A stretch of DNA of 64,000 bases from contig CAIIXF020000001.1 in assembly GCA_903813345.2 (NCBI GenBank), forward strand, positions 58,917,885-58,981,884, in the 5' to 3' direction. Position 1 is the stretch's first letter. Every line of letters begins with the position of its first letter. The notes beneath the pieces were generated by a model. The model saw only the letters and a program-made list of their open reading frames with translations. It was not told the origin of the DNA and did no database searches. Below, piece by piece: positions 1,270-63,550 of this stretch. Made by a program: the position numbers and the translations under genes. Origin of the DNA: Owenia fusiformis (taxonomy: Eukaryota; Annelida; Polychaeta; Sabellida; Oweniidae).

Positions 1270-2101
1270 CACAGGCTGGTATCGAAAGATTTGTCTGCTG
1301 TGACGGAGCATGCTATTTTTCATAAAAACACTAAGAATGCTTCACGATTTATTTTTTAACTCATATGTTTCGATATATCAAAGATAATTACTTACTCCAT
1401 GCAATGGATATATCATTTGCGTGTTACCTTCACTTCTGTTTGAAGTCCAATAACGCTAGGAGTGAAATCTATTGAAAACGGCGCCAGAGTATCAAACTCT
1501 AAAATGTACCATTTCTTTTTTAACTTTTTAATGGCATGATATAGTGACACGATAATATTAACATATGTTTTAAGCATAACTCTGAATGTATTAATGAGAT
1601 ATTAATGCATTGGGTCTTTTTAATTTTTTTAATAAAAAATGATATTAATATTTTTTGTCCGCTGTGACGGAGCATTTTCACAGTTCACATTTGCAACTGC
1701 TCCGTCACAGCGGACAGAAAAATTAAACATTATTTTTTATAAAAGAATTAAAAAGACCAAATACATCAACATCTCATTTATACCTTCATAGTTATGCTGA
1801 AACCATGTGTAAATATTATCGTGTCACTATATCGTGCCATTAGAAAGTTAAACAAGAAATGGTACATTTTGAAGTATGATACTCCGGCGCCATTTTCAAT
1901 AGCTTTTCTTCCCATCGTAATTGGACTTCAAACAGAAGTGAAAGTTACCCGCAAATGATATATCCATTGCATGGTGTAAGTAATTTTGTATGGTATAACG
2001 AAACATATGAGTTAAAAAATAAATCGTGAAGTATTCTTAGTGTTTTTATGAAAAATAGCATGCTCCGTCACAGCGGACAAATATTTTGATACCAGCCTGT
2101 G
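1270..2101. mobile_element. Foldback transposon, CAC-end family 1 (complete copy)
   Basis: This 832-bp element is almost entirely one long inverted repeat with arms of about 400 bp. It starts CACAGGCTGGTATCGAAA, ends with the reverse complement, and is flanked by the perfect 5-bp duplication ATTAT (1265-1269 and 2102-2106). A GTCCGCTGTGACGGAGCA-like motif lies near each end and is repeated as a facing pair at the centre (about 1660-1720). One arm carries the inward motif GAAAATGGCGCCGGAG and the other has ACG in place of ATG. No long open frame is present, so it is non-autonomous. The same family recurs at 54679-57322. Confidence 0.85.
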
Positions 2102-2186
2102 ATTATGACCTTGATTAGTAAGTAGTCATGATTTTAGAAGGCTCAATACATGATAGTATACATTTTAAGACATTTTTTGTTTCCAG

Positions 2187-5100
2187 GTGTTCAAAGCCTT
2201 TGAATCAAAGAAATCAGGAAGTCCTGTAAAAAATAAGGTAAGATACAATTTTGATCCATAGGTATAGATAAATTTATCCCATACTTGGACGTGTTACAGG
2301 TACATAAAGCCGGTTTGTAAAAACTTATATTTTCATCAGCGGGCAGATATATAGTATATCTGCCCGCTACATCACTATCGCCGCTCGCATATTTGCTCAT
2401 AATTTGTAACGTTCACGTTATGACTGTAAATGACAATGGAGAAAACACAGACAATCGAGATCTGTTTGGTGGTTTAAAAAAGAGAAGGAGCATCCACTTA
2501 TAGGCTATTAATCAATCAGAAATTTGAGAAAATAAATGTGGGAATATTTGAGAGAACAGGAAAATCCACCCACGGCCAAGAAAACAAAACTGGACATGAA
2601 TATTCCAGAATATTTCCACGATTGAACAATGTTAACCAGATGACCAAGATTGGTATGGGATAAACATATTATCCTATAGTCGGTTCAGGATATTGGGATT
2701 ATCCCTTGGCCTATATATCTGCCCGAGAGCTGAAGATTTATAGACTGTGCTTCATTCAATGACAGTGACATTTCTAGTGATCTGATTTACCCATATGACA
2801 TTAATATATCCTGAATATTCATATGAGATTTAGAATCCATATATCACTCTGACATCACCATCTCAACTATTTCAGCAACATAAAGTCGTCATGTTCTGTT
2901 CAAACAATTTAAAACACAACATACACATGTTTATTGCATTTCAAGAATGAGAGGAGATTTTAGTAAAACATTTTACTAGATAATGTAACTATCATACTAA
3001 CTATCATAGAGTGTTATGCAACATTTGGCTTGCATGTAGACCTCACGGTAGAACAGCTAGATAAGCAATCAGTTGAATGATGGTCCAGATGAGTTGCAGT
3101 AATACAAACTGTCATTAAATCATGCAGTTTGTTTTGATCCAATGATTGAGATATGTAGGCCATTTGTCTGGCTTTCCTATGGTACATGACTTGAAGCATG
3201 AATTATTAATGCAATGTTTCATGGTAGTTTTCCTCTTTATTTTCAGATATGGCAAGGTGATATGTTTAAATAATTTATGATAAATCATGAATAAAAAGTT
3301 TGCAATATAAATATCTCATTGTTTAATATGATAAGATTGTGAGGAGGTACATGTACATGTACATATCTCAAAATTATCTGAGCTGACATCTTGTTATTTG
3401 TATTTGAACTGTGTCCTGGAAATTCACCTTCAACTCCTGAATTTCAAATAAAGATAAAAATCACATCTATGGAATTAATTAATAGAAATGGAAATGTCCC
3501 GGCAATAATTGATTTCAATAAAAATTTCAATAATGTCCTGATTATGCTGATGTTTTCCTTATAATTCTAATAATAGTGCATGTTGCTTTAAATATACAAA
3601 ATTGTTTCAAGCTGAATCCAGTGTAATGTTAATACCCTTTTGACATTATTAGATGGTTTGAAACCTCACAACTGTGGCATGAGTTAGAACCATGGTGCGA
3701 TATGTAATTTAATATAAGCGTACTGTATATTTAATTTCAAGAAATATTCTACTACAATAATCCCAAAAGGCCCATATGTCAAGTTCAGATTCTGTACTTT
3801 CTAATCTAATAGTAAAACATCACAGTCCTTGGCAAAATACATACCACCCTACTTCATGCTGATTAATCAAAAAGAACAATTGTCAATTTCTATTCTTTTA
3901 AAATGAGGTTCATGCCACCTTGCTTTATTAATGTCATACTGTATCCTCGCATTTTCACTCTTGGTATTGGGAAAAGTTATGACGAGTCTACCATGACATA
4001 TCCTGTAGCAAGAAACGATCATGAGGATAAGCTCCCTGCAAGAGGCAATTATTTCCCTAATCTACTGTAAAAATATTCCCATGGAATCTAGGTCCTTGGA
4101 CCACATGCATTGAGGTCCCTGGGTTCACAGACCTCAGGACAGTACATGAGTACATGCATATGTATGCTATTTAGTTCAGTTATGTGTGATAATGAATGAA
4201 GTATTTTGAAGTATGCATATAGGGTATAGGGGGACTGGAGAGTATCCCTCGAGGCATGGACCACATACATATCGAGGTTCCTAGGTTCATTGGCTGCAGG
4301 AAGATATTACCAGTTCAATGAACATATTGTTAAATGAGAACAGTGTAACCCATGAGTACAAATGTAGGGGAGTTTAATTGGAAATTGGAGATTTAAAAAA
4401 TTGGGGTCAGTCTGAAGTGAAAATTACACCCCCTCTTTTCAAAAGTAGGTCTGACATGTACTGTAAATATATAATCATCCTGTATAGTAAATATATAACC
4501 ATCTTCTATGGAAAAACGATCCAGGGAGCTATCACCTCAGGGTTGTAGTACACTTGGATGAACCTCCTATATTGCAAGTCCTAAATGCAGAGTACCTCAT
4601 AGAATAATGCATAAATATTCATTATTGGGCTTTGAAATTTGATAATAAATTATCAAAATATTTGTGCAACTGTGGGTAAAATCTTGATTATCTCGCCAAG
4701 TTGAACTGAAAATTTGCCAATAGAATTGTTTGCACTTAAATTAAGTACAAAGTCTTATAGATTTCAAATTGATTTTGAATTCCTGATTTCTGTCAAAATT
4801 GACCGTATTACTTTCATCAGTTCATTGTCAGTTGATCTTGTAAATCCATTTAGGTATGCAGGTCAGGTATCCCCGCTCTTGAATGTGAAATTCTGAGATT
4901 TCTATGTTTATAAACTCTTACAACTTTCAATTGGAAATATTATGTTTTCACTTATGTAGGGTGAATGTCAAGATAATCTCAAGTTAATCCACATTTGTAA
5001 ATCCAATGATGTATTACCAGGACAAGGTCTGCTAATCTACTTTTGTAATCATAAAAATTCGCAAATCATTTTAAGAGATCAGTTTTGGGAGAAATTCCTA

Positions 5101-43600: not shown

Positions 43601-46600
43601 TTCATGTTTTATGAACATTCCGATTTGATAGCAAACTTTATTTTTGAGTGTATTAAATCAAATAAAGCTTATTGCGTCGGGACCTGTACGTTCGCCCAAT
43701 TAAAAGCAAATGTGCCGTCAATTAAAGAAACATGCACAGTGGTACACCCTTTTTGGAAAACATAACACTGATAATAAAAATTCATCAATTGTTATGAAAT
43801 TTGCACCATCATTAAAAAGAATCTCGAATTTCATGATGTAAAAATATCGGATAAATATGACAAGAAATAAAAATTTGTTACATTTTTCCCCAAAAAGTTG
43901 TAAAATAAAAATAAACTAAAAAAATAATATTTTCACGACAAAAAATAGATAGGTCAACTGTATTGATTATACATGACGTTTTCAAAGAGTAGAGAGCTAG
44001 ATTCAAAGCACTGTTCCTGCAAGTTTCAAATGAAAATATTAAAAACTGCGCGAGTAAGAGGACCGCAACTTTTTATGTCTACACTGACAAAAACTTGAAA
44101 TTCACGTTGTAAAGATATAGTCCATCGCGGAAGTGCACGTCATAAAGCTGATGGGTTAAGGCAATGTGCCGTCCAACTGTATATTGTGCATGTGGCGATT
44201 CACGACCCAATTTGATCGAAAATGGGATTTCATATGATACATTATCACAAGAGCTTAATGCATGCACAGAATTAACGACGATAAAATCCAATGAGGACCA
44301 AGTGATTAAACAGTTGAAGCGACGGTTATGTCCGCCATTTGTGACAACGGTATCTGACTTTACCGTAGTCAGGCTATTCCGGTGTGATGCAGTGTCTCGA
44401 TATAGACACTGCGGCGGGCAGATAAAGACAAATACCACTGGAATCAGCATAAAAAGATCTATAATTCTGCGTTTTTTAGATTTTTAAATTGAAGTCTCAA
44501 TAAAAAATTAAATGCTAAAATAATTCCATTTTGAAAAAAATCTAACTGCGCCTTCTTGAATTATGACGTCACAATGACACTATCTCATTTGCATATTCAA
44601 TTTTTTTCAAAAAACAAAAAAGTATGGGTATAGCCCTTCAAAATGATATATAACTTATTGGGTGTTGCTTCCTTTTCTTGCTTCTAGATTCATTTACATT
44701 TTAGTTTTTCATTTCTTTCCATTTTCCCAAAAATAATCAGGCATGAGAGAGTTAAGTTAGATTTGAACTTTTGAGAACTTGTAGATAATTTTGAAAAAAT
44801 GGTCAATTTGAAACAAGTTGAAAAAAGACATTTTTGACTTTGAGAAGGTCATTGAAGGTCAAGTATTTTTTTGACCTTGAGAATGTCATTGAAGGTCAAA
44901 TCTACAATGTGTCTCAAAAAAGGTTACACTTACAAAAAGTTCAATATCTTTCATAATTTTGACTTTTCTCCCAGGGTGTCCGGAAAGTAAAGATACAAAT
45001 GCTCTCATTTCAAGAGATTTACCTGTTATGAGATGAAATTGCTACAGATCGTAGAATGACATTATAAGAATATATCCTACAACTGTCATGACTTTTAGTT
45101 TCAAAATGAAAAAGTTATGGTTGTTATGGTAACGAGAGTCAAGGGTAAGTGGAGCAACGTCACAACTGTGTTCTACAAATCTCTTTCCTTCTCATATGAT
45201 CTTGGCACTCCACCATCTATTCCTATATTATATCAAATTATGTACCACAACAGCATAAGGATTAGTTCTTTAACATTATTTGATCATTTCATATTACTAC
45301 TATCATTGAATATTCAGTATTTTCCCCATTATCTATACATTCTTGGTGCATCTTGACCGGCGATTCAAAGGCCTGGCAAAACCGCTGCTGTCCATCTCTT
45401 AGATTCCTGATAATATTGGCTTCCAGCTGAGTCTCATTTGTATGTTGAACTTCTTACAAATATTGCTTTCAAATGGTCATTAAAAAAGGTAGAAGTCTAA
45501 AGAGGCTTTATCAGGTGAATATGGGGCATTGTATAGAAAGGTTTAATGTCAAGACACTCAATTGTAAGATTTGTTTTTTGCTTTGTGAATTGATGCATTG
45601 TGGAGATGCAATATTGACTTTCCTACTATAATGGCCAGGGACCATTCTTCTAGGCACTTGTATAATATTTCTTTCATTATACTGGTTAGTGACATAACAT
45701 AGTTCTGATATGTAGCAATGGCATCATTATATAAAAGAAAATACTATGGCAGCAATAAAACAATGATGAACTAAACAAAACATTGATAGAAAATACAACA
45801 AAAAACACTGTTTCAAATGGTTGTCTTTTAGCAATTTTTCACTTTTTAGCGTTGTTCTGGAACTGCTCCGCATACCCCTCGTATCCGTAACTATAACAAC
45901 CGTAACTTAAACACATTTAGACTATATGTGATGAAAGTTGGTAGATATATTGTAATATTGTTTCTCTACAATCTGTAGCAATTTCATTTCAAAAAACTCA
46001 AATTTCTTAAAATAAGAGTATTTGTATCTTTACTTTCCGGACACCCTATACTTTGTATACCAAAAGACAAATCTTCCAAGAATAATTTGACACCATCAGA
46101 TTCAAAATCTGTCCTTGGTTGACTGCATAGGACAGCTTTTAGTGTCCCATGGTGAAATCTGACTTGCGCCAACGTCTAAGTGATTCATTGGATGAACCAA
46201 ATGACAAAATAGGAACAGTTTCTTTAACATTTTTCTTCCGAGTTGAAGCTTGACCTTTAATGAGTCATTCTGTTATTTTCCTATTTGTCTTACATATGAT
46301 CATTGGGTCTATCCACATAAACATAAACATGTGGTCCCCTCAACATGTTCTCCAAAGCAAATCTGAGGTACCTTGCCCATGCGCACATGGATTGTAATAT
46401 TACACTGATTCCATCAATTATTTTTGCAGAAGTTCATTTAGGTCAGTTTATGATGTTGTAAAACACTTTCAGAGGCCCTTCAAAAATCAAGGGTGTAAAG
46501 TGGAATGACCCTGGGGGCCAATCCATTGGGTAATTCAATGCTATCTTCTAATTTCCAAAGAGTTCTACCAAACGATCTGCCACAGGCCTTTGCACCATCC

Positions 46601-47617
46601 TGTTGCCATCATAGGTAACAAAATTGAACACTCTGACCATGGAATCTTGTATTTCTATCCAGGAAAAAACAATTGGATCATTGATCATATCAAGATATCA
46701 CTGTCCACAGCATTCACACCAAAAAAGAATTGATCACTACATGTCCAACCACTGAGAAGTTAGCGCAAATCAGATTTCACATGCGTCTATAAAATCTGTC
46801 CTGCGCAGCCATCATGGACGGATTTTGAATCTGATGGTGTGGATTTATTCAAGAAAGACTGGTTTTTGGTATCTAAGTATACTTGGTGGAAAAATCAAAA
46901 TCACGAAAGATATTATACTTTTTGTAAGTGTAACATTTTTTGAGACACATTGTATAGTCAGTTTTGAACATTTGAAAACTTCTAGATGACTTTGAAAAAA
47001 ATTGGTCAAATTGAAACAAGTTGAAAAATATCCATTTGACCTTTTTTTGACCTTGAGAAGGTCAAATCTCGAATCTAACGTCAAATTTGATAAGTTGCAC
47101 ATGATTTTAAAAATAGAATTTGGCCAATTTGAAGCAAGTTGAAAAAAGAGCTTTTTACCTTTTTATTTTTCCTTTTTGACCTTGAAAAGGTCACTGAAGG
47201 TCAAGTCTTATATATAAAGTCAGATTTGAACTTCTGAAAACTTGTAGATGATTTTGAAGTTTTAGAATTGTTGCAGACGCCAACCACCAACCGCCGACGC
47301 AAAAAAAGCGGAGACCATAACAAAATGTCACCACTTTTTGGCGATGACAAACAAAATTGTGAAATCCCAGCTGTCATGTTGAAAATGTCTTCAAAATTCA
47401 GTTTGCTTCTTTTATAACAATTTTCAAGCAAGAAAATACAAAATAATCTTATTATAATTGTGTGTGATTTCAGAGGGGCAGTTCTAGTGTTCTACTTCAG
47501 TTGAGTGAGGGACACACTGTCCATATAGCACTTGAGTACTACTATAATTACTACGTCACCCTTGGCCAAGAATCAACGTTCAGTGGCTTTCTCCTTCAAC
47601 ACGGGCAGCAGACATAA
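25629..47617 (+). CDS. Secreted CASPR-type fibrinogen-like / double sushi / C1q protein
   Basis: Ten exons join without a phase conflict into 538 aa: 25629-25714, 26589-26650, 26875-27154, 27398-27630, 28408-28599, 29821-30000, 30618-30794, 31290-31406, 31610-31755 and 47474-47617 (TAA). All have GT..AG introns. Residues 1-22 are a signal peptide. About 50-284 match the fibrinogen-like region of contactin-associated proteins: 'VNPNGDGAPLVVFCNM', then 'SCQQYVRYECYNSG', then paired Cys in 'CGCSLRGNC' and 'LCNCNN', then 'YTIGPLTC'. This region contains a TEGP repeat at about 195-210. Residues about 287-343 and 346-402 are sushi/CCP domains, with 'VNYTCSEGF' and 'VTYTCKQGY' as signatures. About 406-538 is a C1q domain ('MIAFSA', 'VFTAPFEGLYHIDV', 'STFSGFLL'). 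The product is an extracellular, probably trimeric, carbohydrate- or surface-binding protein; a role in innate recognition is inference. The last intron is 15.7 kb and cuts the C1q domain. Confidence 0.9.
27857..28093. mobile_element. MITE in an intron of the C1q gene
   Basis: The ends CAGTGCTCACCATAAATAAA and its reverse complement enclose 237 bp. It is preceded by TA and followed by CA, so a Tc1/mariner TA target with one mutation is possible. A related fragment (CTCACTTCAGCAAATCC) occurs at about 59.17 kb and again at about 63.71 kb. Confidence 0.65.
28137..28290 (+). mobile_element. tRNA-derived SINE-like sequence
   Basis: CCTTTGGCCGAATAGGTAGA resembles a tRNA 5' half with box A, and GGTCATGGGTATCTG is a degraded box B about 40 nt later. 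The 3' part is not tRNA-like, so this is a SINE head rather than a tRNA gene. Confidence 0.4.
31887..32430. repeat. Dispersed repeat segment P, copy A (interrupted by a MITE)
   Basis: It starts GAGAAAGAGTCGAAGGCATG and is closely similar to 38960-39450 along its length. It differs by the MITE at 31927-32099, which is absent from the other copy. Confidence 0.85.
31927..32099. mobile_element. Short MITE, CxGGTGTxAAAG ends
   Basis: Left end CCGGTGTAAAAGG, right end TTTCACACCTGG. Segment P at 38960 has the uninterrupted site (GAAACCCGGGTTTGGGAAAG). Another copy lies at 49537-49695. Confidence 0.7.
33012..33240. repeat. Dispersed repeat segment R, copy A
   Basis: It is closely similar to 37680-38060 in the shared blocks GGGGTTGCCATTTTAGTAAA and GATAACGAACACCTCCCAAT. 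It ends in a pogo-like terminus (GGATTAGACAGGTTTTACTG). Confidence 0.75.
35135..35560. repeat. Dispersed repeat segment S, copy A (empty site for the 38.35-kb MITE)
   Basis: It is nearly identical to 38017-38348 plus 38893-38960. The continuous sequence CCCAATATCATATACTTTGG here is the pre-insertion form of the MITE site at 38349. Confidence 0.85.
38349..38885. mobile_element. MITE with CATGGGC ends and 7-bp target duplication
   Basis: The 537-bp element starts CATGGGCTTTCAACTAGAAG and ends with the reverse complement (19 of the first 20 or more bases shared). It is flanked by ATATCAT at 38342-38348 and 38886-38892. The paralogous empty site at about 35.48 kb contains one ATATCAT, so the 7-bp duplication is directly verified. 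No ORF is present. Confidence 0.9.
39254..39386 (+). ncRNA. Retro-inserted short element with hammerhead-ribozyme-like core
   Basis: A stem AAATAAA/TTTATTT (39254-39260, 39265-39271) lies directly before CTGAAGA (39272-39278). An extra A and a perfect 7-bp stem GTAGGAT/ATCCTAC with loop GGAC follow, then GAAACGTC (39298-39305). That is the CUGANGA-helix II-GAAA arrangement of hammerhead ribozymes, with one extra A at the helix II junction. The insert of about 138 bp is flanked by the 12-bp direct repeat ATATCGGAAATA (39247-39258, 39385-39396) and is missing from the paralogous segment P at about 32.35 kb. Long duplications and a hammerhead are known from Penelope-like elements and retrozymes. 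No reverse transcriptase is present here. Confidence 0.55.
39662..39966. mobile_element. MULE-like MITE with 9-bp target duplication
   Basis: The ends CAAGGAGGATTGGCTCCCAG and its reverse complement enclose 305 bp, flanked by ATATTACAA at 39653-39661 and 39967-39975. A 9-bp duplication suits Mutator-like elements. One arm contains AAAATGGCGGC. Confidence 0.75.
40221..44386. mobile_element. 4.2-kb CAC-end transposon, family 2
   Basis: The terminal inverted repeat of about 75 bp starts CACCCCGGATTAGCC (left) / CACACCGGAATAGCC (right) and is flanked by the perfect 5-bp duplication ATGCA (40216-40220, 44387-44391). Each repeat contains an inward CAAATGGCGGACATAACCG. The motif GACAACGG recurs in the subterminal regions. 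The interior holds a 1.7-kb tandem repeat and no recognisable transposase. An open frame spanning the right end (44164-44487) has no recognisable domain. Confidence 0.85.
41045..42760. repeat. Diverged tandem repeat, about 8 units of 205-245 bp
   Basis: Units begin with GAAAAGGTCATGTGTGCGTA-like sequence near 41060, 41290, 41522, 41764, 41986, 42224, 42427 and 42672. The units at 41.5-42.2 kb are most alike and the outer ones are degraded. The array lies inside the 40.2-44.4-kb transposon. Confidence 0.8.
44750..44940. repeat. Dispersed repeat with DR4 nuclear-receptor half-sites, copy 1
   Basis: It contains GATTTGAACTTTTGAGAACT, GAAACAAGTTGAAAAA and AGGTCA-TTGA-AGGTCA, a direct repeat with 4-bp spacing. 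Related copies lie at 46950-47440 and 62218-62500. Confidence 0.75.
44973..46047 (-). mobile_element. Mariner-like element with decayed transposase
   Basis: Inverted repeats of about 110 bp start AGGGTGTCCGGAAAGTAAAG at both ends. On the - strand, 45.36-45.70 kb reads as a broken C-terminal transposase. 'NAPYSPDKASLDFYLF' corresponds to the conserved proline-rich SPD block before the last catalytic Asp. Stops on both sides show it is dead. Confidence 0.7.
46100..46850 (-). pseudogene. Second decayed DDE transposase fragment
   Basis: On the - strand, 46.50-46.63 kb reads 'QQDGAKAPVADRLVELFGN' with frame breaks, like the QQDGA..H block of IS630/mariner-type transposases. Boundaries are not defined. 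Confidence 0.35.
46945..47445. repeat. Dispersed repeat with DR4 half-sites, copy 2
   Basis: It carries the same TTTGAACTTCTGAAAACTTG and GAAGCAAGTTGAAAAA blocks as the other copies, plus AGGTCA-CTGA-AGGTCA at about 47185. It ends 28 bp before the last exon of the C1q gene. Confidence 0.75.
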
Positions 47618-47890: not shown

Positions 47891-48443
47891 CACTGCTACC
47901 CACCTAGTTACACAGACGTATCGTCAGTGTATCATGGCGGAACTACTTCCGGGACTAGGTTTCGGTAAGATTTTTTTATTTCCCGATTTACACCTACTTA
48001 TAAGTCACGTTGTGGATAATAATTTGGCTCGAAGTTAAGGAAGATAGTCTAGTTTGAGAATGTGTCGATGGTTTTAGGTTTTATATGTTAACGAAGACAC
48101 AATTCACGTATTTAGTCCCTCGCTTTTGTTACACTGACGTACGACCAATATCAGTGTAATATTGGCAATATTAATGCCGATCGTCAGTGTAACAAAAGCG
48201 AGGGACTAAATATGTGAAATGCGTCTTCGTTAACATACCAAACCTAAAACCATCGACAGTCGACACATTCTCAAACTAGACCATCTCAAATAACTTCGAG
48301 CCAAATTATAATCCACATCGTGACTTATAAGTACATGTAGATGTAAATCGAGAAATAAAAATATCTTACCAAATTCAAATTCCGGAAGTAGTTCAGCCAT
48401 GATACACTGACGATACGTCTGTGTAACTAGGTGGGTAGCAGTG
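47891..48443. mobile_element. Foldback transposon, CAC-end family 3, with a start exon in each arm
   Basis: The 553-bp element has arms of about 250 bp starting CACTGCTACCCACCTAGTTA and is flanked by AGAGT on both sides (47886-47890, 48444-48448). The + strand has ATG at 47934, then 31 nt to a GTAAGA donor. The - strand has ATG at 48400, then 31 nt to a GTAAGA donor. The predicted exon peptides are MAELLPGLGF and MAELLPEFEF, and the second codon differs synonymously. The outer 30 or more bases are identical between arms. Confidence 0.85.
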
Positions 48444-50318: not shown

Positions 50319-53300
50319 TTATCCTAGCTGTCCTGATCTGAGAGCCTCTTGATATCCTCCTCCTTCCTTCTGTTCTGGAGCTAGCTTGATCATATCATCT
50401 ATACGTAATATAGTAATAGCGGCTTCAGTGGCAAATTTCAAACTCTTAACTTTGGAGATTGCAGGCTCAAAGACTCCTGCTGCTTTGTTGTCCCTAACTG
50501 TTCCTTCATAGAGGTCTAGGCCAATCCTGCAAATAGAAACACATTGACTGGTCTAGTAGGATATGGAAAACCCTAGGTAGCATAGGGTTCATTATTCTCT
50601 GCAGAAATGTCGACCATTTTGTGATTCCACAAATTTTCAATTACGCAGATGCGAGTAGGTAGTTACCAGATTCACCACCAGATGGCTCGTTCAGGTCAGA
50701 TAGCATGGCGGGTATAGTAGAAAGTTCCCTTTAACTTAAATTACATCTATTTGCGTGGTTCATTTTTCATATAATCCTTATGTATCTAATAGTTATGCAA
50801 ATTAAAATATGTCCAGTAAAAGAAAATGTTATCTGTCCAATACAAGATAAGATAATTCACTTTTTGTGATTTTGTAACATGGGGTCTATGGGGAATCAAC
50901 CCGAACAAGAAGTCGCATTTTCAGAAAAAATTAAATTTTCGAAGTTGATAGACAATTTTCGAAACCATATTTCTAGATGTACTTTTACATGCAGATTTCA
51001 AATATGACATCACTTTGACAGAATTTAGAATATTTAATGACGTAAATCAAGATCATTTCTAATCGCATCTGGTCTATTGAAGATAAAGTAATTTTCATTT
51101 TAACAGCTGGATCCAAGTCCAAATGTTTCAATGATGGAGATCATACTCTTTATAATTTCAAACACATTATGGTTATAGCAATCATATGTACATGTGATAT
51201 TCTCTCCCATTATAAAATTTGAAGATGCAGTTGAAAGACATTGACAAAAGAATCATTTAGATTGTGGCTTAAAGATAGCTGAAGGTTGGTACCAATGTGT
51301 TCCTGAATGTTAACATTGCTTAAGCTAGACTTGAGCAAAATGAAACCTACAGAAGTTAATGTGCCCCAGTAGTATACCATCTGCACTATTGATAAGTTCA
51401 GTAGGAAAGTTTCTGGGATATTTCTAAAACATAAATAACTTTGCGAACATTTCATCAACTTCTTGTTTTACATTTTACACTGAGTTATATTTGTAGTGCT
51501 GTAACTTGCACAGTAAGGATCAATTTGGCAGTTTTGGCTAAATTCTTACCATTTTAGATCTTTATGCTCTGAAGATGTTTGAGATTTATTATGGTATGCC
51601 CTGAGTTTGGCAACAAGATCGGAGGCATCCTGGGCAGCATTTACAGCCAGCTGTTTGGGGATTACTAATAGAGAGTGGGCAAACTCTGCAATAGCAAGCT
51701 GTTCTCTTGAACTCTGAAAACAAATTTCAAAATTATGTTAAATATCAAAATAAATATATACTGTAAACTGTATATATTTTACTGCTTCTTCCTCATAACA
51801 TTACAGCACTTTTGAGATATGATAAAAAAAAAAAATTCAGTACTTCTTATTCTTAACAAGACAGATTGCAGAAGACCATTTTGCCATAAATATTCAAATT
51901 TTTCTGAAATCATTTAGTCCAGCTTACCAAGGATGTTGCAAAATTTTCTAGATATATAGAGAGAGCGGCTTCTACAGCGCCACCTCCGGGGACTACAGAT
52001 TTGGATTCAAGGACTCTCTTTACAGAAGACCATTTTGCCATATTCAATCAAATTTTTCTAAAATCATTTAGTCAAGCTTACCAAGGATGTGGCAAAATTT
52101 TCTAGATATATAGAGAGAGCGGCTTCTACAGCGCCACCTCCGGGGACTACAGATTTGGATTCAAGGACTCTCTTTACAACACAGAGGGCATCATGTACAG
52201 ATCTCTCCATCTCATCAACCATGAAGTCATTGGCACCACGCAGAATAATAGATGCTGCTGTGCGAGCCTTTGACCTGCAATGAAAACACATTGATACAAT
52301 TATTGATATCATCATAGAAAAAAACAGACCTTTCAGATTGTGTGTCAAAAATTTGACCAAACTGCAACATATTTTTTGCCATGTTTCTAAATTTATGTTT
52401 CACCTGATTTTCTACATTTTTCTCAATCCAAAAGTGAAAGCACTGACCAGAAATTAAAGGTTATATTTTTGACCAATTTTATATGACCCCAATTCTTGTT
52501 TCTAGATAAATGACAAAGATAACGGCAATGCAATGGCATAGCAAATCTATCAGATACTGTAAAATCTAGGTGAATGTCAGACAAGACTGCTAGAAATCAT
52601 TTCTAAAATGGCCAATAAAATAGACAAGTAACACCAAAAGGTAAGTGTTATTTTGGCATATATTTCCATACATAAAGGAACCATGGCCTGGACGAATGGA
52701 CAGATGGCTTCTCTTTATCTTTACTCAAACTGTTTGATTGATCAATGATTCAGTACATGGTATCACTAATCTTCAGCCATACCTCTAATGTAGAATGTGT
52801 AAAATCTACTTACCCTTTTACAAGTATGAGTTCATCATCACAAATTCTGACTTGTTCTACTTCATCAGCCTGCCCCAACATGGAGGGTTCAAAGGATTCC
52901 TCACCTTCAAGGTTGGCCATGGTCAACACTAACTGGCCTATAACACAACAATGCAATATATAAACAAGTACACAGTATACCCTTTTATTTATGATTCAAC
53001 TAGTATATATGGTAATTTCTAGTTTTGATAAAATATCCACCCCAACCACAGATTATATATGTATTACCAAAACAGTATTGTAGCTTGGGGGGAAGAATTC
53101 ATATCACATGCCTGCATGCCTCAATAACATAATAACAAGAATGTATCTGGACAGTTCTGTAGCTAAGACTGAACTTCAGCCAATTGAATCATCCATAAGT
53201 TAATGTGCCCCAGTAGTATACCATCTGCACTATTGGCGAGTACAGTAGGAAAGTTTCTGGGATATTTCAGAGTATAATAAGCGGGTGAACCCTGTACACA

Positions 53301-56300
53301 AAGGTGACTATTTGAATGAGTTGTAAAATATTATTGGTCCCACTACAACATGAACATTGGTTCAAATTGGTGGTATTTAATTTGGCTAATTTTCAAAAAA
53401 TTTAAACAATTTAGCAGGTTTTAATATCAAATGCACAGAAATTACCCAAATAAATATCTAATTGGCAGAAAATATATAATTTATTTCTTTATTCACTACA
53501 TTGATTTATTTTTGAGTTCTTGAACAAAAGTGGCAAATCAAAGCAATTAACACGATATGTCAAGATATGTACTTATAGCGAAGACTTCTTTATGATAGAA
53601 AAGTTTGGCCAAGTGTAGAAGCTAAGACTATGAACTAAATGTTACCTCCACATGCTTTGGCAATTCTCTTGAGATCAACTTTCTTGCATCTTCTCACAGC
53701 CATGGCTCCACCCTCTACAAAGTACTTGAGACATAGATCATCAATGCCCCCTGTAGTAAGAATGACATTGGCTCCTGCGGCAAGAATCTTCTGGATTCTT
53801 TCTTTTGTGATGTCAAACTCTCTGTAAAAACATTTATTATGTAGAAGATATCTTAATGATCAGAGGACATCTGTACTTTGAATGCATAATCAAAAAAGGT
53901 CAGTTTTGCTAATTTTGCAGTTTTTTTACTGAAATCTATGTCGAAAACCAACGCAAGGAGCGCAGTTTCAAAAGCTCTCTGGTTGGTTCAATGAAACAAC
54001 CTCGTTGGTCGATTTACCTTATCCAACTGTTAACAATCTTAGAATTCAATGCACATTTAAATGACTGCATCTTAGAGTTCAATGCACATTTATGTGACCG
54101 CATCTTAGAATTCAATGCACATTTATGTGACTGCAATCAGACAATACAAGAAACACCAATCACAAGCCTAAGAAATAACAGATGTATCTGGACAGTTCTG
54201 TAGATAAAGCCAAACTTTAACTGAATGAAACATCCAGGAGTTAATGTGCCCCAGTAGTATACCATCTGCACTATTGGCGAGTACAGTAGGAAAGTTTCTG
54301 GGATATTTCAGAAATTGACATCAAACGCTACATGTACATTAATATGTAAATAAGCAGCAGCCTCTCTTACTTCAATGTTCAGCCATTTGACCTTTACTTC
54401 ATTGAATGCTTGAAATGTAGTATCAAACTTTACAAACCTTTGTCTCATGTCATCGAGCTTTGTGGGGTCTTCCACTAGCATCTGCACTCCCATTTTCATC
54501 TTAGCTTTCTGCAGACTGAAGTCTAGACATGCTATCTTAGCATTAGCAACCTTCTTGGGCATGCCAACTGCAATAACAATTATTTCATTTTTAAGAGCAA
54601 ATACATTGATGCTGATTTTAATTTAAAGTGATGGATTTAAATGTACAAATAAGCAGATTCCTCAGTGATTCCCAAATACACAGGCTGGTATCGAAATATT
54701 TGTCCGCTGTGACGGAGCATGCTTTTTTTCATAAAAACACTAAGAATACTTCACGATTTATTTTTTAACTCATATGTTTCGTTATTCCATACAAAATTAC
54801 TTACTCCATGCAATGGATATATCATTTGCGCGTAACTTTCACTTCTGTTTGAAGTCCAATTACGCTGGGAAGAAAAGCTATTGAAAATGGCGCCGGAGTA
54901 TCATACTTCAAAATGTATCATTTCTTGTTTAACTTTCTAATGGCACGATATAGTGACACGATAATATTTACACATGGTTTAAGCATAACTATGAAGGTAT
55001 AACTGACCCCTGTTACACAGGCCAGTTGAAATGCTTCGTTACGAAGCAATTTGACAAAAAGCTTCGTAACGAAGCAATTTTGGGCCAGTGTAACACCTCC
55101 GCCTTCGTTAGAAAAGCTTAGTTGATAACGAAGCAATTGAGTAGAAAATTCAACGAAGGTTAGGTCCCAACGAAGCATTTTTGGCCTGTGTAACAGGTAG
55201 CTTCGTTAGAAAATGCTTAGTTGGCGTTTTGCGCATGCGCGTAATAAAGAGCATATTCATCATTTCGTATTAAATGAGAGGAATCGCGAGGAAAGAACAT
55301 GTTTGTAAGTACGTATTATTATAATGCTACGTTTTGATTAAAATAATTACCTATTTGCGTCACTGATTGACGCTAACTCAAGCCCTAAACGCAATTAACG
55401 TACAAATGTGATATACCGTCTTTCGTGGCATTTCATTCGATTCCCTGCCTTTCCTCGCATTGATTTGACAAAAAGTATTAAATCTAAAAAACGCAGGTTT
55501 TACCGTATATGTATACGGTATTTTTGAAACGTTTATCTGATCTATAAGGGAATAAACCTAGAATATTTAAATGTCCCTCTTTCCGGAAAACTCCGTCTCA
55601 AGTATGGAAGGGTAAACTTTTGAAATTACATAATATATGCTTACTAAATAGAAAGTTGTGGCATACATGTTTAATATTAATTTTTTCTTGCGTCTCGAAT
55701 ATGTATACCTTGAATGTAATTCTAAAGGTGTTAATATCATGATACTGATGCAATTGCTTCCCGGTGAATCACATCAGGGAATTTAGCCGATTTGATTGAT
55801 TCGAAAATGTCTCTCTTCAGAAATCGTATTCAACTGATTATCGCCCCATTGCAATACTTGTACTAGTCGTTCTATTATTTCATTCTTCGACGATTTTAAA
55901 TTGTAATTGAATTCAAACTTCATGTTTAAATATATTGGATTAATTACGTTTCAAAACTTCTGTATACAAATACAGTAAAACCCGAGGACAAGGAACGGTG
56001 GCCAAAATTGTTTCTTGTCGACAGATATTTGCCACAGAGAGGCTGCATGTTTTAGGCCATCCCCAAACACTATTGATGTGTCGTAAGACGATGCTTACAA
56101 CAGATATTTAAGTTTCTTCCAATTTGCGCCATTTTCGAATTCAACGGACGGCTGATGGATTAACATACTAATTTATGTCAAACTCACTAAAATATGCATG
56201 GAATATTGGGTAATATTCATATTAAAATGAATTGATCATGAAATAGTAGTCAAACCACCAGCCGAACACCGTGATATTTTAGTAATGGCTACACTATTTG

Positions 56301-58868
56301 AAATATAACTGAGAAGTCCATACTAGTCCTCTGTATAAACCCCAAATCCAATTCCTCCTAGTAATTAACATAGGCCTATTTTTATTCCACAATTTTTTTA
56401 ATGATAGAAAATGAAAACAATACTTGTAATCGTATTGACAGCTGAAATATATAAAAATCGAAATGATGGGAAAAATGTATGGGCATGTGTACGGAATTAT
56501 CACATTCATCTGGTTTTATTTTCCCGAGAATTTTGAACTAGTCTCTTTCTGTGCTGAATTGTTAAAATTAACATTAAAAATTAGATTTTTGAGTTTGATC
56601 AATAGTTTATATCAAAAGAATAAAAATATTAATCATAATAAGTGGGTGGGGCAGATGAGTACTGCGCACGCGCAACGAAGCATTTTAAGTGCAGCGTAAC
56701 ACCAAATAATTGCTTCGTTAGGGTTGGATAAAGCCAGTGTGGACACAATTTTTTCGCTAACCTTCGTTACAAAAATGCTTCGTTAGACTCAACCCAGCAG
56801 TGTAACAGGTACCAATGAGATGTTGATGTATTTGGTCATTTTAATTCTTTTATAAAAAATAATGTTTAATTTTTTTGTCCGCTGTGACGGAGCAGTTGCA
56901 AATGTGAACTGTGAAAATGCTCCGTCACAGCGGACAAAAAATATTAATATTAATTTTTATAAAAAAAATTAAAAAGACCCAATGCATTAATCTCTCATTA
57001 ATACATTCAGAGTTATGCTGAAAACATATGTTAATATTATCGTGTCACTATATAATGCCATTAAAAAGTTAAAAAAGAAATGGTACATTTTAGAGTTTGA
57101 TACTCTGGCGCCGTTTTCAATAGATTTTACTCCTAGCGTTATTGGACTTCAAACAGAAGTGAAGGTTACACGCAAATGATATATCCATTGCATGGAGTAA
57201 GTAATTATCTTTGATATAACGAAACTTATGAGTTAAAAAATAAATCGTGAAGCATTCTTAGTGTTTTTATGAAAAATAGCATGCTCCGTCACAGCGAACA
57301 AATCTTTCGATACCAGCCTGTGAAATATGGACAAAATTGAGTATTTATAAAATTTGCAATCCATTCACAGTACATGCATAAATGTGGAATATTTTAGTTT
57401 TGCTCATTTTTTGATTGGAAATTCAAAAATGCACTTACATATTAGAAACAAACATAAAATTGATTTCAATCAACATGAAAAGGTATTAAATTCACTATAC
57501 ATGAAGAGGATTGTAACTTACCCTGGGCAGCAACTGTGCAGTTCAATGCATATCCATTGACCAAGATACTCTCTCTGGAACTTTTCCCATGCGCCTTGAG
57601 TACATTCACTGCCTTAATGGGATACCTGTAACCTCCCTTGCCATCAGCCATTTTGATAGCATTTGCTGCATCGACCACCATGGCTGAAAAGAACTCCGAG
57701 TCTCTGTGTGTATGTTAAGGAATAATTTGTGAAGCTCAATCTTTTTAAGGCAAATGATAATTCAATTTCTTCTTGGCTGTTTAACTTGTGTGGTATTGAC
57801 TTTCTATTTAACATTAAATTTTTCTACGAGTAACTTTCAAGAAAAATAGCACAATTTTGTGAATACACATGGTGAAACAGCATATTTCTACAGTCAGGTA
57901 TTAATGAAAGACTTAGAAATGGGATAAAGTACCGAATTAATGAACCCAAAAATTCATACTCAATAGTTTTGTTAGTATGAATTTTGCGATCATGATCAAT
58001 CATGATCATGCAAGAGTTAAAAATAAAATATATATAAAAAAATTCTAGAAATTAATCAAAACTGATTTTATGAATTTTGATGTATATAATGAGAATTAGT
58101 TTTTCCATTCAAGAAAGGATACGCTCCAATAATTTTGCTGGACATGCTAGTTTTGGCACAATTGATAATGCAGTTCTTGTCTAGATCATCTGTGCTGATT
58201 GTAAGATGCTCTTGGATGTACTTTACTGCCTCCCTGCAAAACAAAACAAAAATATCATATCATACAAATTCCATTTAAAACATTAATCGATGTAAGCGAT
58301 TCAGGACAAGACAAGCATTCAATTAATATTGTGATTCTATTCATTTTATCACAAATACATGCAACTTCAAGCAAGATTTAAATATCACACATTTTCCTTA
58401 CTTGCAAGCTAATCTGAAGCCACTGATTACTGATGTTGGATGTATTTTACACTTTACTAATTCATCTGCATTCTTCAACAACTCGGCTGCAATGATAACC
58501 TACAAAGATAAAATAAAAGAAAGATGATGAGAGAATATTCTACAAAATCAACTTTCAGAGTGAACAATACCTACCTGAAGTTATATATTTAGTAGTTTAA
58601 TAAGTGCCTGTTAATGAAAATCTGAATTGATAATAATATGTCAATTTTCTTACCACTGAAGTGGTACCATCTCCAACCTCCTGGTCCTGGAGATCTGCAA
58701 GCTCAACTAGAACTTTGGCAGCTGCATGTTCAACTTCTAACAATTTCAATATTGTAGCTCCATCATTTGTGATAGTCACATCTCCAACGTCATCTACCAG
58801 CATTTTGTCGAGACCAACTGGTCCTAAACTAGTTTTCACAATGTTTGAAATAGATGATGCTGCCATAA
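50319..58868 (-). CDS. TCP1: T-complex protein 1 subunit alpha (CCT1), lacking exon 1
   Basis: Ten exons on the - strand: 58868-58654, 58499-58402, 58233-58123, 57703-57522, 54567-54438, 53821-53646, 52937-52814, 52274-52082, 51713-51550 and 50526-50319 (TAA). All phases agree, giving 1601 nt or about 533 residues. Subunit alpha of the eight-member cytosolic CCT/TRiC ring, which folds actin, tubulin and other proteins using ATP. Identity rests on '[19 protein letters not shown]', '[18 protein letters not shown]', 'VGDGTTSVV' (ATP site), '[20 protein letters not shown]', '[13 protein letters not shown]', '[17 protein letters not shown]' and the C-terminal '[18 protein letters not shown]', all close to human TCP1. 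The missing exon should encode about 21 residues and end one base into a codon. It was not found before 64000. A transposon (54679-57322) sits in one intron and a partial exon duplication in another. No damage is seen in the main exons. Confidence 0.95.
51351..51425. repeat. Short dispersed repeat in CCT1 introns (copy 1 of 3)
   Basis: The block GTTAATGTGCCCCAGTAGTA continuing to AGGAAAGTTTCTGGGATATT also occurs at 53203-53268 and 54238-54311. The latter two share a further 60 bp upstream (ATGTATCTGGACAGTTCTGT). Confidence 0.85.
51871..52178. repeat. 154-bp tandem duplication in CCT1
   Basis: Units 51871-52024 and 52025-52178 are the same length. By eye about 6 of 57 intron bases differ but only 1 of about 97 exon-side bases. 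An assembly artefact is unlikely because the units differ. Confidence 0.9.
51928..52017 (-). CDS. Duplicated 30-codon segment of a CCT1 exon with its own splice sites
   Basis: This 90-nt stretch repeats the last 30 codons of the exon 52274-52082 (from 'RVLESKSVV' to 'ENFATSL'). Its upstream side is now a usable acceptor context (CTTCTGTAAAG) and its downstream side is a copy of the true donor (TTG/GTAAGC). Both ends are phase 0, so inclusion would insert exactly 30 residues in frame in the equatorial domain. One base differs in the coding part and is synonymous (GCC/GCA). Whether it is spliced in is unknown. Confidence 0.45.
53143..53268. repeat. Short dispersed repeat in CCT1 introns (copy 2 of 3)
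   Basis: It is the same family as 51351-51425 with the longer 5' part. Confidence 0.85.
54039..54141. repeat. Three tandem units of about 36 bp
   Basis: ATTCAATGCACATTTATGTG-type units recur three times at about 54050, 54080 and 54112. Confidence 0.8.
54181..54311. repeat. Short dispersed repeat in CCT1 introns (copy 3 of 3)
   Basis: It is the same family as 53143-53268. It ends 127 bp from the CCT1 exon at 54438. Confidence 0.85.
54679..57322. mobile_element. CAC-end family 1 foldback transposon, second copy, with a nested insertion
   Basis: It starts CACAGGCTGGTATCGAAA and ends with the reverse complement, flanked by AAATA on both sides (54674-54678, 57323-57327). Arms match the copy at 1270-2101, which is inserted in the opposite sense: the ATGGCGCC arm is left here and right there. 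The length is 2644 bp because an unrelated element of about 1.8 kb interrupts the left arm. Confidence 0.85.
54999..56812. mobile_element. Nested element with CCTGTTACAC ends and GAAGCA repeats
   Basis: Comparison with the uninterrupted arm of the 1270-2101 copy places the insertion after GAAGGTATA and before AATGAGATG. Ends read CCCTGTTACACAGGCC and CAGTGTAACAGG. The subterminal 150-200 bp on each side are filled with AACGAAGCA / TGCTTCGTT words, in both orientations, that look like protein-binding repeats. No long ORF is present. The target duplication is unclear. Confidence 0.65.
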
Positions 58869-59264
58869 CTGCAATAATGAAAAGAAATTAAATTACTGCA
58901 TGTCGTATGCATCATTTAATAGGTCATACTCATAGCCATCATTTTTTTTATTAAGAGATTATTCAAATGTGTGTGAAAAGTGACTCAGGGAATACCCCTG
59001 TTGACTCTTCCTACCTCTATTGATTTTTTACACAACAAGAACATTTTTCAATGGCAAAAAGACGCAGCTTTCTCAAATTGCTATTATACACTTCAACCTT
59101 GTTGCATACTCTCAAACACTTATGTACGGCCCTTGAAAATTCTCTTCTTTTTAATACCGGAAATTCTCACTTCAGCAAATCCAGGTGTCATTTATTTGTG
59201 ATGAGCAAAGTAATCTACATTTTGTGTATTTTGCGCGCATCCACTGAAGTATGAATCTGAAATG

Positions 59265-59394
59265 TCTACAGTCTGTTACACTGCTTCAAAGGCAAGCAGT
59301 TGAACCTGAAAATTAAGAAATCTATAGACCATTGTGCCAAAACATATAGAAAAATATATTCATATTGCACACGAATGACATTTGTATATTTCAG
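59265..59394. repeat. Outer inverted repeat, left arm
   Basis: CTACAGTCTGTTACACTGCT to GACATTTGTATAT is repeated in inverted orientation at 63551-63675. The 4-kb transposon at 59416-63419 lies between the arms, so it may have inserted into an older foldback element. Confidence 0.75.
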
Positions 59395-59502
59395 ATTATT
59401 CAGTGTTTACTGCAACACGATGAGCAACCATACCGCACCGGGGATCGACCCCGGTGCGTTACACTTTTCCCCGGAGCGTTGGTAACGCACCGTCCTTTTA
59501 AA

Positions 59503-61950
59503 ATGGCGGACGGAAATGTGTTTCCTCCGGAGGGAACAAATAATAGTGGAAACCAGAGGTGAGTGAATATCTTTTAACACATTCCATTCTAAACACGATA
59601 TATCAGGGTACCTTATCAAAATTCCACAAAGCTGTAACATATCGGTATTATGTGAACGAAATGTAAATGCACCTTGAAAAATTCGAAGGAAAGTTAAAGG
59701 CTCGTCTAAAATGTTGTATTTCTTGTCAAAGAAATGATTGGAACAACCACAGATTTTTTTACTCAATATAGATATATTTATAAACATACTACTCTTCAAT
59801 ATCTTACAATCGAACATTGTATAAGCGTCATTTATTTTCATGAAATGTACCTTCCAAAATTGATGGGGTAACGCACCGACACAAATCTACGACAATTTAG
59901 AAACGCACCGGTTATATTTTTACAGGAAACGACGGAGAAGTTCTGGACTGCAAACTGGGCATTCAAGATACAAGAAACGCCTGAAAATTGCACCTACCGT
60001 CACTACAAGCGACGCTGGTTGTACAAAAGCCACAACTAACGATAAATCACTTAAGACACCAATCAATGCTAATACAAAGGCTATCAGAAGTGCTAGGAAA
60101 AATGCACCAAAGAAAAGAAAAAAGCCAAAAATTAGAAAAACATTGTTTGAACAATCACACACTGATTATGACATTGAAATTGAAAGTGCTATGAAACTAC
60201 TACCAAATGTCATATTGTGTCTCAGAAGACACAGTTTTTGCACCGAATTCATTATGCTACTAAGACTCCTCACGAAAGACAAATTCCCAATGAATAACAT
60301 ATCGTGGCTTCTTTTCCTGGAGGTTGTGAGGTGGTATTCCCTTAGTTCCACCTCAAACATGACGTACAGGTATGGTTGTTAGCTTTAGAAGCAAACACTC
60401 ACCCTGGAAGTACATTTCACATAACAAGGTATTTCATAATGACCGTCCCCTGTCAGTCACCAATCCTAGATGGCGCACCTCCATGTGTTATAATATCATA
60501 GGAAAGCTCAATCAATTCATGACTTATTAAAACAACTTTGATTAAGCTCAGCAGCTTTTACGCTGTTTTTTGAGCTCTTAATGATACGAATAATAATGTT
60601 ATTATTTGTCCCTCTCTTTAAACCCAATGTACAAATAGAAGCCATAAATCCAGCAAATTAGGATGATAGTGACGACAAAACATAAATCCACAAATTATGG
60701 TCCCAAGGATCACTCGTTCCAAAAAGCTGTATGATGATGTATAGATTAAGAGAATCTAAAGGCCCATGTGATTTAGGATTGGTTTTGGATGGGAGAGGGT
60801 AATTATGAAACACCCTATACAATACACAAATGCATAAAAAATCAAAGTACGAAATGTGATAGTTTGCAAAATACGGTAATACATACTACAGGCGATAAAG
60901 ATATGACACTTTCACTGGTCAGAATCAAGATGCGGTAACGACCGTTACCTTCTTATCTAAGATGGCGGACGAAAAATGTCGATTTCGATATTTTTTGTTT
61001 TCATCAAATTAAACTACGTATAATTGACGCAATGCTTTGATATTTGAACTTGATAAGCCTTATATATCATGTATAATCCTTATATAAGCCTTATATACAC
61101 GGGCGCCATAATTCAATTATATGTTACACCGCTTAAGGGAAGGTAACTGAGAGTTTGATTTTGCAAAATTCACTTCCATTTACCTTCCCTTAAGCGGTGT
61201 AACATACAGTTGAATTATGGCGTCCACGTATGATTTAAGAATAAATGGTCACACTTCTAAGTTTCCATGATATCTTAGATTTATCAAGTTCAAATATCAA
61301 AGCATTACGTCAACTATAAAGTAGTTTAATTCGATGAAAACAAAATATATCGAAATCGACATTTACCATCCGCCATCTTAGATGAGAAGGTAACGGCTGT
61401 TACCACATCTTGATACTGACCAGTGACTTTGATAACATTTCGTGTGTATCCGTTCTTATACCCTGCAGCAAATGTTATAAAATTATTTCACAATTATCAA
61501 CGTAAAAACTAAACCGTACATTTCCAAATGAATAAAATATTGTATACTTTGAACATCAGTACCAATCGATTGAAAGCGTTATTGTTTCGTAGGGTAGAAC
61601 TACACTCAATGCATTTGTGAATGGGTGTGTCAAAAAATCCGTTTTGCCCCTAGTTCCATAGATATACCCTTTCCCATTCTCATTTTAATATTTATAGATT
61701 TGAATATATCGTTTCTAACGATTGTACCATAACAATTATATGTATACTTTAATACTTAGCGAGGAAACTCTAACCTTCTGGAAAGTTGGCTACCGGATGT
61801 TCCATGGGAAATTCGATCTTGCGCTTCATGGGTGGAACAAAGTCAGTTGGTGCATTAGTGGAATCGAAAGAACAAGCGAGGCAGTACGATCCTCAGCATG
61901 AGGATCACACTATCAATAAAGCACCGGTGCGTTTCCAAATATTGGCCTAA
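59503..61950 (+). pseudogene. Spliced gene carried by the 59.4-63.4-kb transposon, uncharacterised family
   Basis: Three exons fit: 59503-59558 (ATG, AG/GTGAGT), 59926-60369 (TTTTTACAG, AG/GTATGG) and 61760-61950 (CTTAG). Phases agree. The first about 110 residues are very basic and poor in hydrophobics ('KNAPKKRKKPKIRKTLFEQ'), like a DNA-binding or nuclear region. A hydrophobic helical part follows. Exon 3 encodes 'SEETLTFWKVGYRMFHGKF', then appears frame-shifted: after four extra bases (GATC) another frame reads 'LRFMGGTKSVGALVESKEQ'. I recall similar FW..GYR.FHGKF.RFM sequences among unannotated invertebrate proteins, but this is from memory. No transposase motif was recognised. Confidence 0.45.
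60913..61425. mobile_element. Foldback transposon, CAC-end family 5
   Basis: The 513-bp element has arms of about 250 bp starting CACTGGTCAGAATCAAGATG, flanked by ACTTT on both sides (60908-60912, 61426-61430). Each arm has AAGATGGCGGA directed inward, opening a 16-codon frame with the same stop position in both arms (MADEKCRFRYFLFSSN versus MADGKCRFRYILFSSN). The centre is an inverted GGTGTAACAT pair. It is inserted between exons 2 and 3 of the gene carried by the surrounding transposon. Confidence 0.85.
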
Positions 61951-62217
61951 TATGACCGGTGCGTTACAACTAGATTTAGTGATATCTCATAAAACTGACC
62001 ACGATTTAACTCCTAAACTGACACAATTTTGCATGCAACCATAAGGATCATGTTGATAAGATATATTCTCGCACAATCTAGGAATCTTCTGTATATTTCA
62101 TAATGAAGGACCCACGGTCCTGTGCTCACACAGTTTGGAACCTTCAGAGGAATGTATATACTGACTTTCAAACAAAAATATTGATTTGGATTTGTAGTCT
62201 CAAACTTTGAGAAACTT

Positions 62218-62500
62218 AGATAGCACAGTTGTGTGACCTAGTTTGATGACCTTTGACCTTGAAAATTTTACTAATTCAGAGCTCAGTAAGGTCTTTTGTG
62301 ATTAAGCTGACCTAAATTTACATCCAAAAATCAATTTGAAAAATCAACTATTTTGACCTTTCGAAGGTCACTGAAGGTCAAGTAAAGGTCAAATCCTAAA
62401 ACGAATGTCAGATTTGAACTCCTGGCAACTTGTAGATGATTTTCAAAAAAAATTGGTCAAATTGAAGCAAGTTGAAAAATAACTTATTTTTACTGTTTTT
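62218..62500. repeat. Dispersed repeat with DR4/DR5 half-sites, copy 3
   Basis: It contains AGGTCA-CTGA-AGGTCA followed 5 bp later by AGGTCA (about 62366-62392), with the same GAAGCAAGTTGAAAAA block as the other copies. Confidence 0.75.
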
Positions 62501-62997
62501 TTACGTCAAACATCTCAAAAACTGTAAAAATTTGATGCTGACATATATTGAGCAATATGTAGGGAATGCTTAAATCTAGTAATGATGTAATTCATTGCAA
62601 GAAATGATCAAGTATAAGGCAAACTTTGAGAAACTTGTCAATCACAAAACCTGCCATTGACTTTATACATGAGAAAGTTTCCTGAAAAAAGTCCTACTTT
62701 TTGTCAAATTTTATAGAGTAAAATCAAAAAACTGTAATTCCAAGAGCTTTGAAATCTTCAGAGGACATAAGTTGCATATACAGCAACTACTAAAAGTTAT
62801 TTGAAAGTTCTACTTCAACAAAGAGTCTAGTATTTACAGAAAATTTGACTTTTTGACGTCAAAATCCGCAATTTCTCGGAAACCGGGCGAACTTGGGAAA
62901 TGGCGATGATAGGTCAAATAGGCATTATGGATATGCATAAAATGAATGTGGATATGACTCAATCCGAATAGCAGTTTTAATTTGTGCGGCCAATGTT

Positions 62998-63088
62998 GAC
63001 GGACGGACGGACGGACCAACGGACGGACGGACCAACGGACGGACGGACCAACGGACGGACGGACGGACGGACCAACGGACGGACGGAC
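62998..63088. repeat. (GGAC)n microsatellite with AAC interruptions
   Basis: GGAC units are interrupted by CAAC at regular intervals. It is followed by GGCTCACTGTGTGAGCC and may be the terminal repeat of a retroelement. Confidence 0.9.
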
Positions 63089-63310
63089 ACCTGGTCGATC
63101 CCATAGGCTCACTGTGTGAGCCAAAAAGAATAAAAAACATCAAAATATTTTAATGTTGCTTGTGCTTTTACATCTTGTTTGCATTATATAGGCTAGTTAT
63201 CACTGATCTAATCGATCTGGATCATTCCTTAATATATTGTACTTTGAATGGTACATAGGAGTTCTGCGTACCTAATCACGAAACATCGTAAATCAAAAAT
63301 TTCTACTCAC

Positions 63311-63340
63311 GTCCATTATGCATTTATCATTGTCCGCCAT
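63311..63340 (-). CDS. Possible first exon in the right arm of the 4-kb transposon
   Basis: On the - strand ATG GCG GAC opens a 10-codon exon (MADNDKCIMD) ending at GAC/GTGAGT. It mirrors the + strand exon 59503-59558 in position relative to the terminus and in its AANATGGCGGAC context. It cannot be the missing CCT1 exon 1 because its phase (0) does not fit the next CCT1 exon. Downstream exons were not recognised. Confidence 0.35.
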
Positions 63341-63550
63341 TTTTCTTCACTCCGGAGCGTTACAATTTAAGTGTAACGCACCGGGGTCGATCCCCGGTGC
63401 GGTATGGTTGCTCACCGTGTGCAATAAGCCTGTGCCCTCTTGTAATTTGAGGTCCGTCTGCCATGTTATTTTTTGAGAATTAACATGTTCGAGAAGCATC
63501 AAAATATAAGAGGTTACAGAGTTTATGAGCCAATTTACAAGCAAACCAAC

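Follow-up and report, generated by a model that had tools for sequence, protein, structure and literature searches.

In a 64,000-nucleotide stretch of contig CAIIXF020000001.1 (assembly GCA_903813345.2, forward-strand positions 58,917,885 to 58,981,884; this whole stretch is called the window here, and positions are counted from its first letter), we found six transposable elements of five families (A to E) that start with 5'-CAC, end with GTG, have inverted ends and are each flanked by an exact 5-bp target-site duplication (TSD). We lean towards the view that the five families form one lineage of cut-and-paste DNA transposons defined by CAC tips and 5-bp duplications, a lineage not assigned to a superfamily and possibly undescribed. 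Beyond tips and duplications, all twelve ends agree at two inner positions; in four of the five families a dyad has its centre about 30 bp inside the tip, and these families carry a short word, ATGGCGGA, deeper in their ends.

Six CAC/GTG elements in five families

The elements are listed below (a strand is assigned to D only).

1270-2101: family A, copy 1; CAC/GTG miniature inverted-repeat transposable element (MITE), palindromic over its whole length; TSD ATTAT
54679-57322: family A, copy 2; TSD AAATA; about 1.8 kb extra at 55007-56806 relative to copy 1
40221-44386: family B; terminal inverted repeats (TIRs) of 73 bp; TSD ATGCA
47891-48443: family C; palindromic MITE; TSD AGAGT
59416-63419, + strand: family D; TIRs of 51 bp; TSD TGCAA; putative decayed coding element
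60913-61425: family E; palindromic MITE; TSD ACTTT; within a putative intron of D

The duplication stays at 5 bp in all six cases and can never be extended to 6 bp; the six duplications all differ from one another, and therefore they are not part of the element ends. A TIR scan of the whole window (elements of 100-7000 bp, at least 12 of the first 14 bases matching, duplications of 3-10 bp) returned 16 matches with a 5-bp duplication, and the six of these that start with CAC are exactly the elements above (the remaining 10 include inner parts of palindromes). At a looser threshold (at least 12 of 16 TIR matches plus a 5-bp duplication), ten first-order Markov sequences of window length gave 0, 0, 0, 1, 0, 0, 0, 0, 1 and 0 CAC pairs; TIR agreement in the six real elements is 14-16 of 16. 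The first-pass annotation of this DNA had already placed the same six elements; its coordinates, tips and 5-bp duplications proved exact both on re-checking and in the scan. It had drawn from them a single rule for all six elements, possibly that of a separate superfamily, a proposal that the present results support; the inner positions, the dyad and the word described below are additions to it.

Family A is represented by two copies, which are ∼97% identical in their common parts. Aligned over the full length to their own reverse complements, A copy 1, C and E are 87%, 83% and 80% identical, respectively. Family B contains a tandem array in its interior (5.4 copies of 237 bp at 41059-42330); three of its open stretches were scanned, none with a Pfam match above the cut-off, and B is taken as non-autonomous. 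Judged by sequence, D would be a decayed coding copy, and the other families look non-autonomous.

Arrangement of the element ends

In an ungapped comparison, 12/12 ends have A as base 12 and C as base 14. Shuffling columns within families gave p = 0.002 for two invariant columns within bases 4-20 and p = 0.008 for the total column agreement.

The strongest dyad within the first 70 bp is centred close to 30 bp from the tip in families B to E (no strand is assigned to these features):

40236-40265: dyad of the B left end, centre 30.5 bp from the tip; mirror at 44342-44371
47909-47931: dyad of the C left end, centre 30.0 bp from the tip; mirror at 48403-48425
59434-59458: dyad of the D left end, perfect 10-bp arms, centre 31.0 bp from the tip; mirror at 63377-63401
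60934-60949: dyad of the E left end, centre 29.5 bp from the tip; mirror at 61389-61404

The combined dyad score is 25.5, and none of 2000 random draws of window segments scored as high (maximum 23.3). Four further TIR elements of the window served as controls; the best dyads of their eight ends are centred 22 to 49.5 bp from the tip.

The word ATGGCGGA occurs eight times in the window, seven of them inside the ends of B to E, at 44-50 bp from the tip in B, C and E and at 80-88 bp in D. Its copies in the ends are:

40269-40276, + strand: ATGGCGGA in the left end of B
44339 (-), 47934 (+), 59503 (+), 60962 (+), 61377 (-) and 63341 (-): the other copies in the ends

The right end of C is the sole end of B to E that lacks the word and reads ATGGCTGA there. 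The published YY1 motif AANATGGCG is the reverse of CGCCATNTT (PMC7481187). Taken with the three preceding bases, the D and E words match AANATGGCG, and those of B and of the C left end differ from it by one mismatch. When the terminal 90 bp of nine of the 12 ends were compared pairwise on both strands, nine of 64 comparisons reached p < 0.05, against about three expected: B/E in 4/4 (same strand), B/D in 2/4, D/E in 2/4 and one A/E (opposite strands).

In DDE transposition in general, the ends are joined to the target in a staggered manner, and repair of the gaps creates the target duplication. A transposase, presumably of the DDE type, would here cut at the CAC tips; the enzyme, acting as a dimer, would probably bind the dyad centred ∼30 bp inside each end, and the ends would be inserted into the target with a 5-bp stagger, the duplication resulting from repair of the gaps. 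Non-autonomous copies would then need only the terminal 50-90 bp, and the whole-length palindromes may have arisen when one end was copied twice, in inverted orientation, during repair.

The putative gene remnant in family D and the surrounding sequence

D contains three open segments that can be joined in phase by GT/AG sites across two putative introns, the second of which holds E:

59503-59558, + strand: putative exon 1, starting with ATGGCGGAC; GT donor at 59559 (predicted splice site)
59926-60369, + strand: putative exon 2, 444 bp, with AG at 59925 and GT at 60370; inside a 172-codon open frame
61760-61947, + strand: remnant of putative exon 3; frame shift near 61815, reading stops at 61947

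An open frame of 172 codons was equalled in two of 500 simulated 4-kb sequences; the opposite strand of D also has a 157-codon open frame, so openness by itself is modest evidence for a gene. Owing to this shift and to the end of the frame in exon 3, D lacks the catalytic part. ATGGCGGA, as part of a YY1-like site, may double as the start of the transposase-like gene of D. With an ATG inside the D end, the terminal repeat may thus carry a promoter, a start codon and a recombination signal together, as read from this single copy. Another word, GTAACGCACCG, has five copies in the window, always within D (59463-63373), in both orientations and in some cases away from the tips; these copies are possible additional transposase-binding sites. 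The segment 62329-62491 of D resembles parts of 44756-47258 (73-87% in short pieces); it is a dispersed repeat and may stand in place of the lost 3' part of the gene.

Ten stretches, including those of family B, were scanned against Pfam, and the D remnant gave no match above the cut-off. Matches below it were taken as chance: Sec23_helical (E = 0.066) and YhfX-like_C (0.071) in D exon 2, PT (0.33) in D and Flu_PA (0.057) in B. The exon 2 open frame found nothing better than E = 0.27 in the PDB set, in which we take RAG1 and HzTransib chains to be present, and the three matches at E = 0.27-0.74 were likewise taken as chance. An AlphaFold2 model of 91 residues of putative exon 2, computed with no alignment, had a mean predicted local distance difference test score (pLDDT) of 59.4 and is not interpretable. 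A tblastn match of exon 3 inside B (40617-40658, E = 0.32) was rejected as chance.

Relatives of the D protein and of the TIRs were sought in viral, plasmid and prokaryotic collections, in which absence says little about eukaryotes. A first degenerate motif, which has no match in the window itself because it spans the frame break of D, found one IMG/VR locus, taken as chance (the surrounding frame is full of stops). A second motif found 22 loci, rejected with a best tblastn of E = 0.19 over 17 residues, and a third had no match in genome contigs. None of the 105 stretches matched in a related-locus search of genome contigs was confirmed as a relative of D. Exon 2 had no tblastn match in phages and plasmids, and IMG/VR returned nothing for a TIR pattern of A or for one of B. 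The D remnant may be similar to uncharacterised predicted proteins of bivalves that would be nuclease-like at the C-terminus; this possible similarity is not used as evidence here, although it influenced how loosely the positions of the three motifs were set.

D itself interrupts another element, a Tc1/mariner-like MITE at 59269-63671 with a TA duplication and CAGTCTGTTACACTG tips; as D in turn holds E, the three form a three-level nest. A copy 2 lies between two minus-strand TCP-1 pieces and is probably intronic (Pfam Cpn60_TCP1 matches on the minus strand at 52064-52399, 54308-54622, which is below the family cut-off, and 58597-58887), and these pieces make a eukaryotic host most likely; the extra segment of A copy 2 at 55007-56806 has CTGTTACAC/GTGTAACAG near both of the segment's ends. 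Elsewhere in the window we observed a Pfam Sushi match at 30485-30835, a 305-bp element at 39662-39966 (9-bp duplication ATATTACAA, CAAGGAGGATTGG tips; Mutator-like by duplication length), a 537-bp element at 38349-38885 (7-bp duplication ATATCAT, CATGGG tips), an inverted-repeat element at 44903-46954 that starts with TACAATGTGTC, has an ambiguous duplication and holds further nested inverted repeats, and ∼75 copies of a 43-bp tandem repeat at 20130-23309, with higher-order units of 212 and 468 bp.

Alternative readings and comparison with known systems

Several observations weigh against a single lineage. Families B to E are each represented here by one copy, and the dyad, column and other end tests were devised after the ends had been inspected. 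The best dyad of family A is at 53 bp, with no strong dyad near 30, and ATGGCGGA is not found in its ends; the membership of A therefore rests on its tips, its TSDs and A12/C14. One control, the right end of 44903-46954, has a good-scoring dyad at 32.0 bp, and therefore a dyad near 30 bp is not unique to the CAC elements. Folded as single-stranded DNA (10 of the 12 ends), both ends of D (z-scores of -4.0 and -4.7) and one end of B (-2.5; the other -1.4) gave strong values; the ends of C (-1.9, -1.2), E (-0.5, -0.7) and A (0.5, -0.2) do not clearly fold better than shuffled sequence. In the pairwise comparisons no end of C is significantly similar to those of another family, and part of the matches (B/D and one D/E) is just the ATGGCGGAC word. 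ATGGCGG is a common start-codon and YY1 word that could be convergent. Of the D gene only the N-terminal part survives, without the catalytic domain, and no relative of its protein was found in the collections searched. Some of these points would also favour the alternative that several unrelated families converged on CAC tips and 5-bp duplications: A stands apart in its dyad and word, C in its pairwise comparisons, and the overall end sequences differ. Against this stand the columns, the dyad position and the motif common to B to E, and we consider such convergence quite improbable.

CAC tips with 5-bp TSDs are typical of Transib and RAG-like (RAGL) transposons (PMC7204232), and all six elements have both; on these two features the first-pass annotation had suggested non-autonomous Transib or RAG-like relatives, and little else of that suggestion fits. 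It had also noted that the heptamer is inexact, with CACGGTG as the nearest form. The right tip of D reads CACGGTG and agrees at 6/7 positions with the heptamer of the recombination signal sequence (RSS), and the left tip of D agrees at 6/7 with the ProtoRAG heptamer CACTATG. The tips of A, B, C and E (10 ends) reach just 3-5 of 7 with the heptamers tried. To the tip consensus of protostome RAGL elements (CACTWMCAAACKTYKBB, with AAA at 8-10; PMC7204232), 0/12 ends fit better than their own shuffles (p = 0.36-0.98), and 0/12 have AAA at 8-10. Transib spacers measure 20-22 bp (PMC8355894), and an RSS nonamer after a spacer of ∼20-23 bp exceeds shuffles in none of the 12 ends (p = 0.23-1.0). Target duplications of ProtoRAG, Transib and RAG are GC-biased (PMC8289069); those found here lean to A/T (7 of 30 bases are G/C), a difference from window composition that is not significant over six sites (p = 0.11). 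The D remnant has no Pfam or PDB match (PDB for exon 2 only), though the core region is lost in D. ProtoRAG ends likewise contain a YY1 site, GCCATCTTG, which aids recombination (PMC7481187); the YY1-like word of B to E reads the opposite way to that in ProtoRAG TR5 and is, by analogy, a parallel with ProtoRAG rather than proof of kinship. A molluscan survey lists one Transib element (PMC10294476), which bears on the host of these elements only if that host is a mollusc. By most end tests the elements do not appear RAG-like; the RAG-like reading is thereby weakened, and we give an origin from Transib or RAGL transposons little probability.

Two other assignments are, in our view, unlikely. The hAT tip follows a loose C-A-N-N-G pattern, which the tips of A, C and E (CACAG, CACTG) match; whole-element palindromes and a dyad fixed at 30 bp are not known as hallmarks of hAT, and the D remnant, which is the N-terminal part only, has no BED or hAT-dimer match. 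The group within that superfamily to be considered is hAT5, defined by 5-bp TSDs (6/6 here) and placed among animal hATs (PMC12730594). The elements might instead be a non-Transib branch of the CMC/CMCT clade (EnSpm, Mirage, Chapaev, Plavaka, ESTA, Lanisha and Transib) that makes 5-bp duplications: across this clade ends are mostly CA..TG and TSDs 2-5 bp (PMC12730594), and Chapaev ends are invariably CAC..GTG (PMC4079192), as are 12/12 ends here. The TSDs of Chapaev are 3-4 bp, and TWA in Chapaev3 (PMC4079192), whereas they are 5 bp in 6/6 elements here; the D remnant has no protein match and lacks the diagnostic C(2)C/H(3-4)H region.

We therefore retain one CAC/5-bp lineage as the reading to be preferred. 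A bolder version of it, tentative and on balance doubtful, is that the lineage represents an undescribed eukaryotic superfamily with CAC tips, 5-bp TSDs, a transposase-binding dyad at 30 bp, a YY1-type promoter and start site, and an enzyme without known relatives. Among the literature matches listed, which covered few subscription papers, there is no described lineage that combines CAC/5-bp ends with a dyad at 30 bp. If the bolder version holds, evolution would have arrived a second time, independently, at the CAC/5-bp chemistry of RAG. The usual reading of CAC tips next to 5-bp duplications is descent from Transib or RAG. Should a separate lineage share this signature, its elements would be misfiled as Transib, and more than one lineage would have originated or kept the chemistry behind V(D)J recombination. 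As a search key, the plan CAC-N8-A-N-C, with the dyad at 30 and ATGGCGGA, could recover intact copies from assemblies and so settle the class.

Compared with known systems, the elements are like Transib and RAGL transposons in their CAC tips and 5-bp TSDs, and like ProtoRAG also in having a YY1-type site in the terminal repeat. They differ from the former in the RAGL consensus, AAA block and nonamer, all of which they lack, in the dyad at 30 bp of four of the five families and in the unmatched remnant, and from ProtoRAG in that the YY1-like word is placed slightly deeper and in reversed direction. With Chapaev/EnSpm (CMC) they share CAC..GTG tips, their duplications being 5 bp rather than 2-4 bp. 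With hAT5, compared by its published description, they share 5-bp duplications, and the surviving D remnant contains no hAT domain. Like animal MITEs in general, the small elements are short and non-coding and have terminal inverted repeats; unlike them, A copy 1, C and E form palindromes from end to end and have an end plan in common with a putative coding element.
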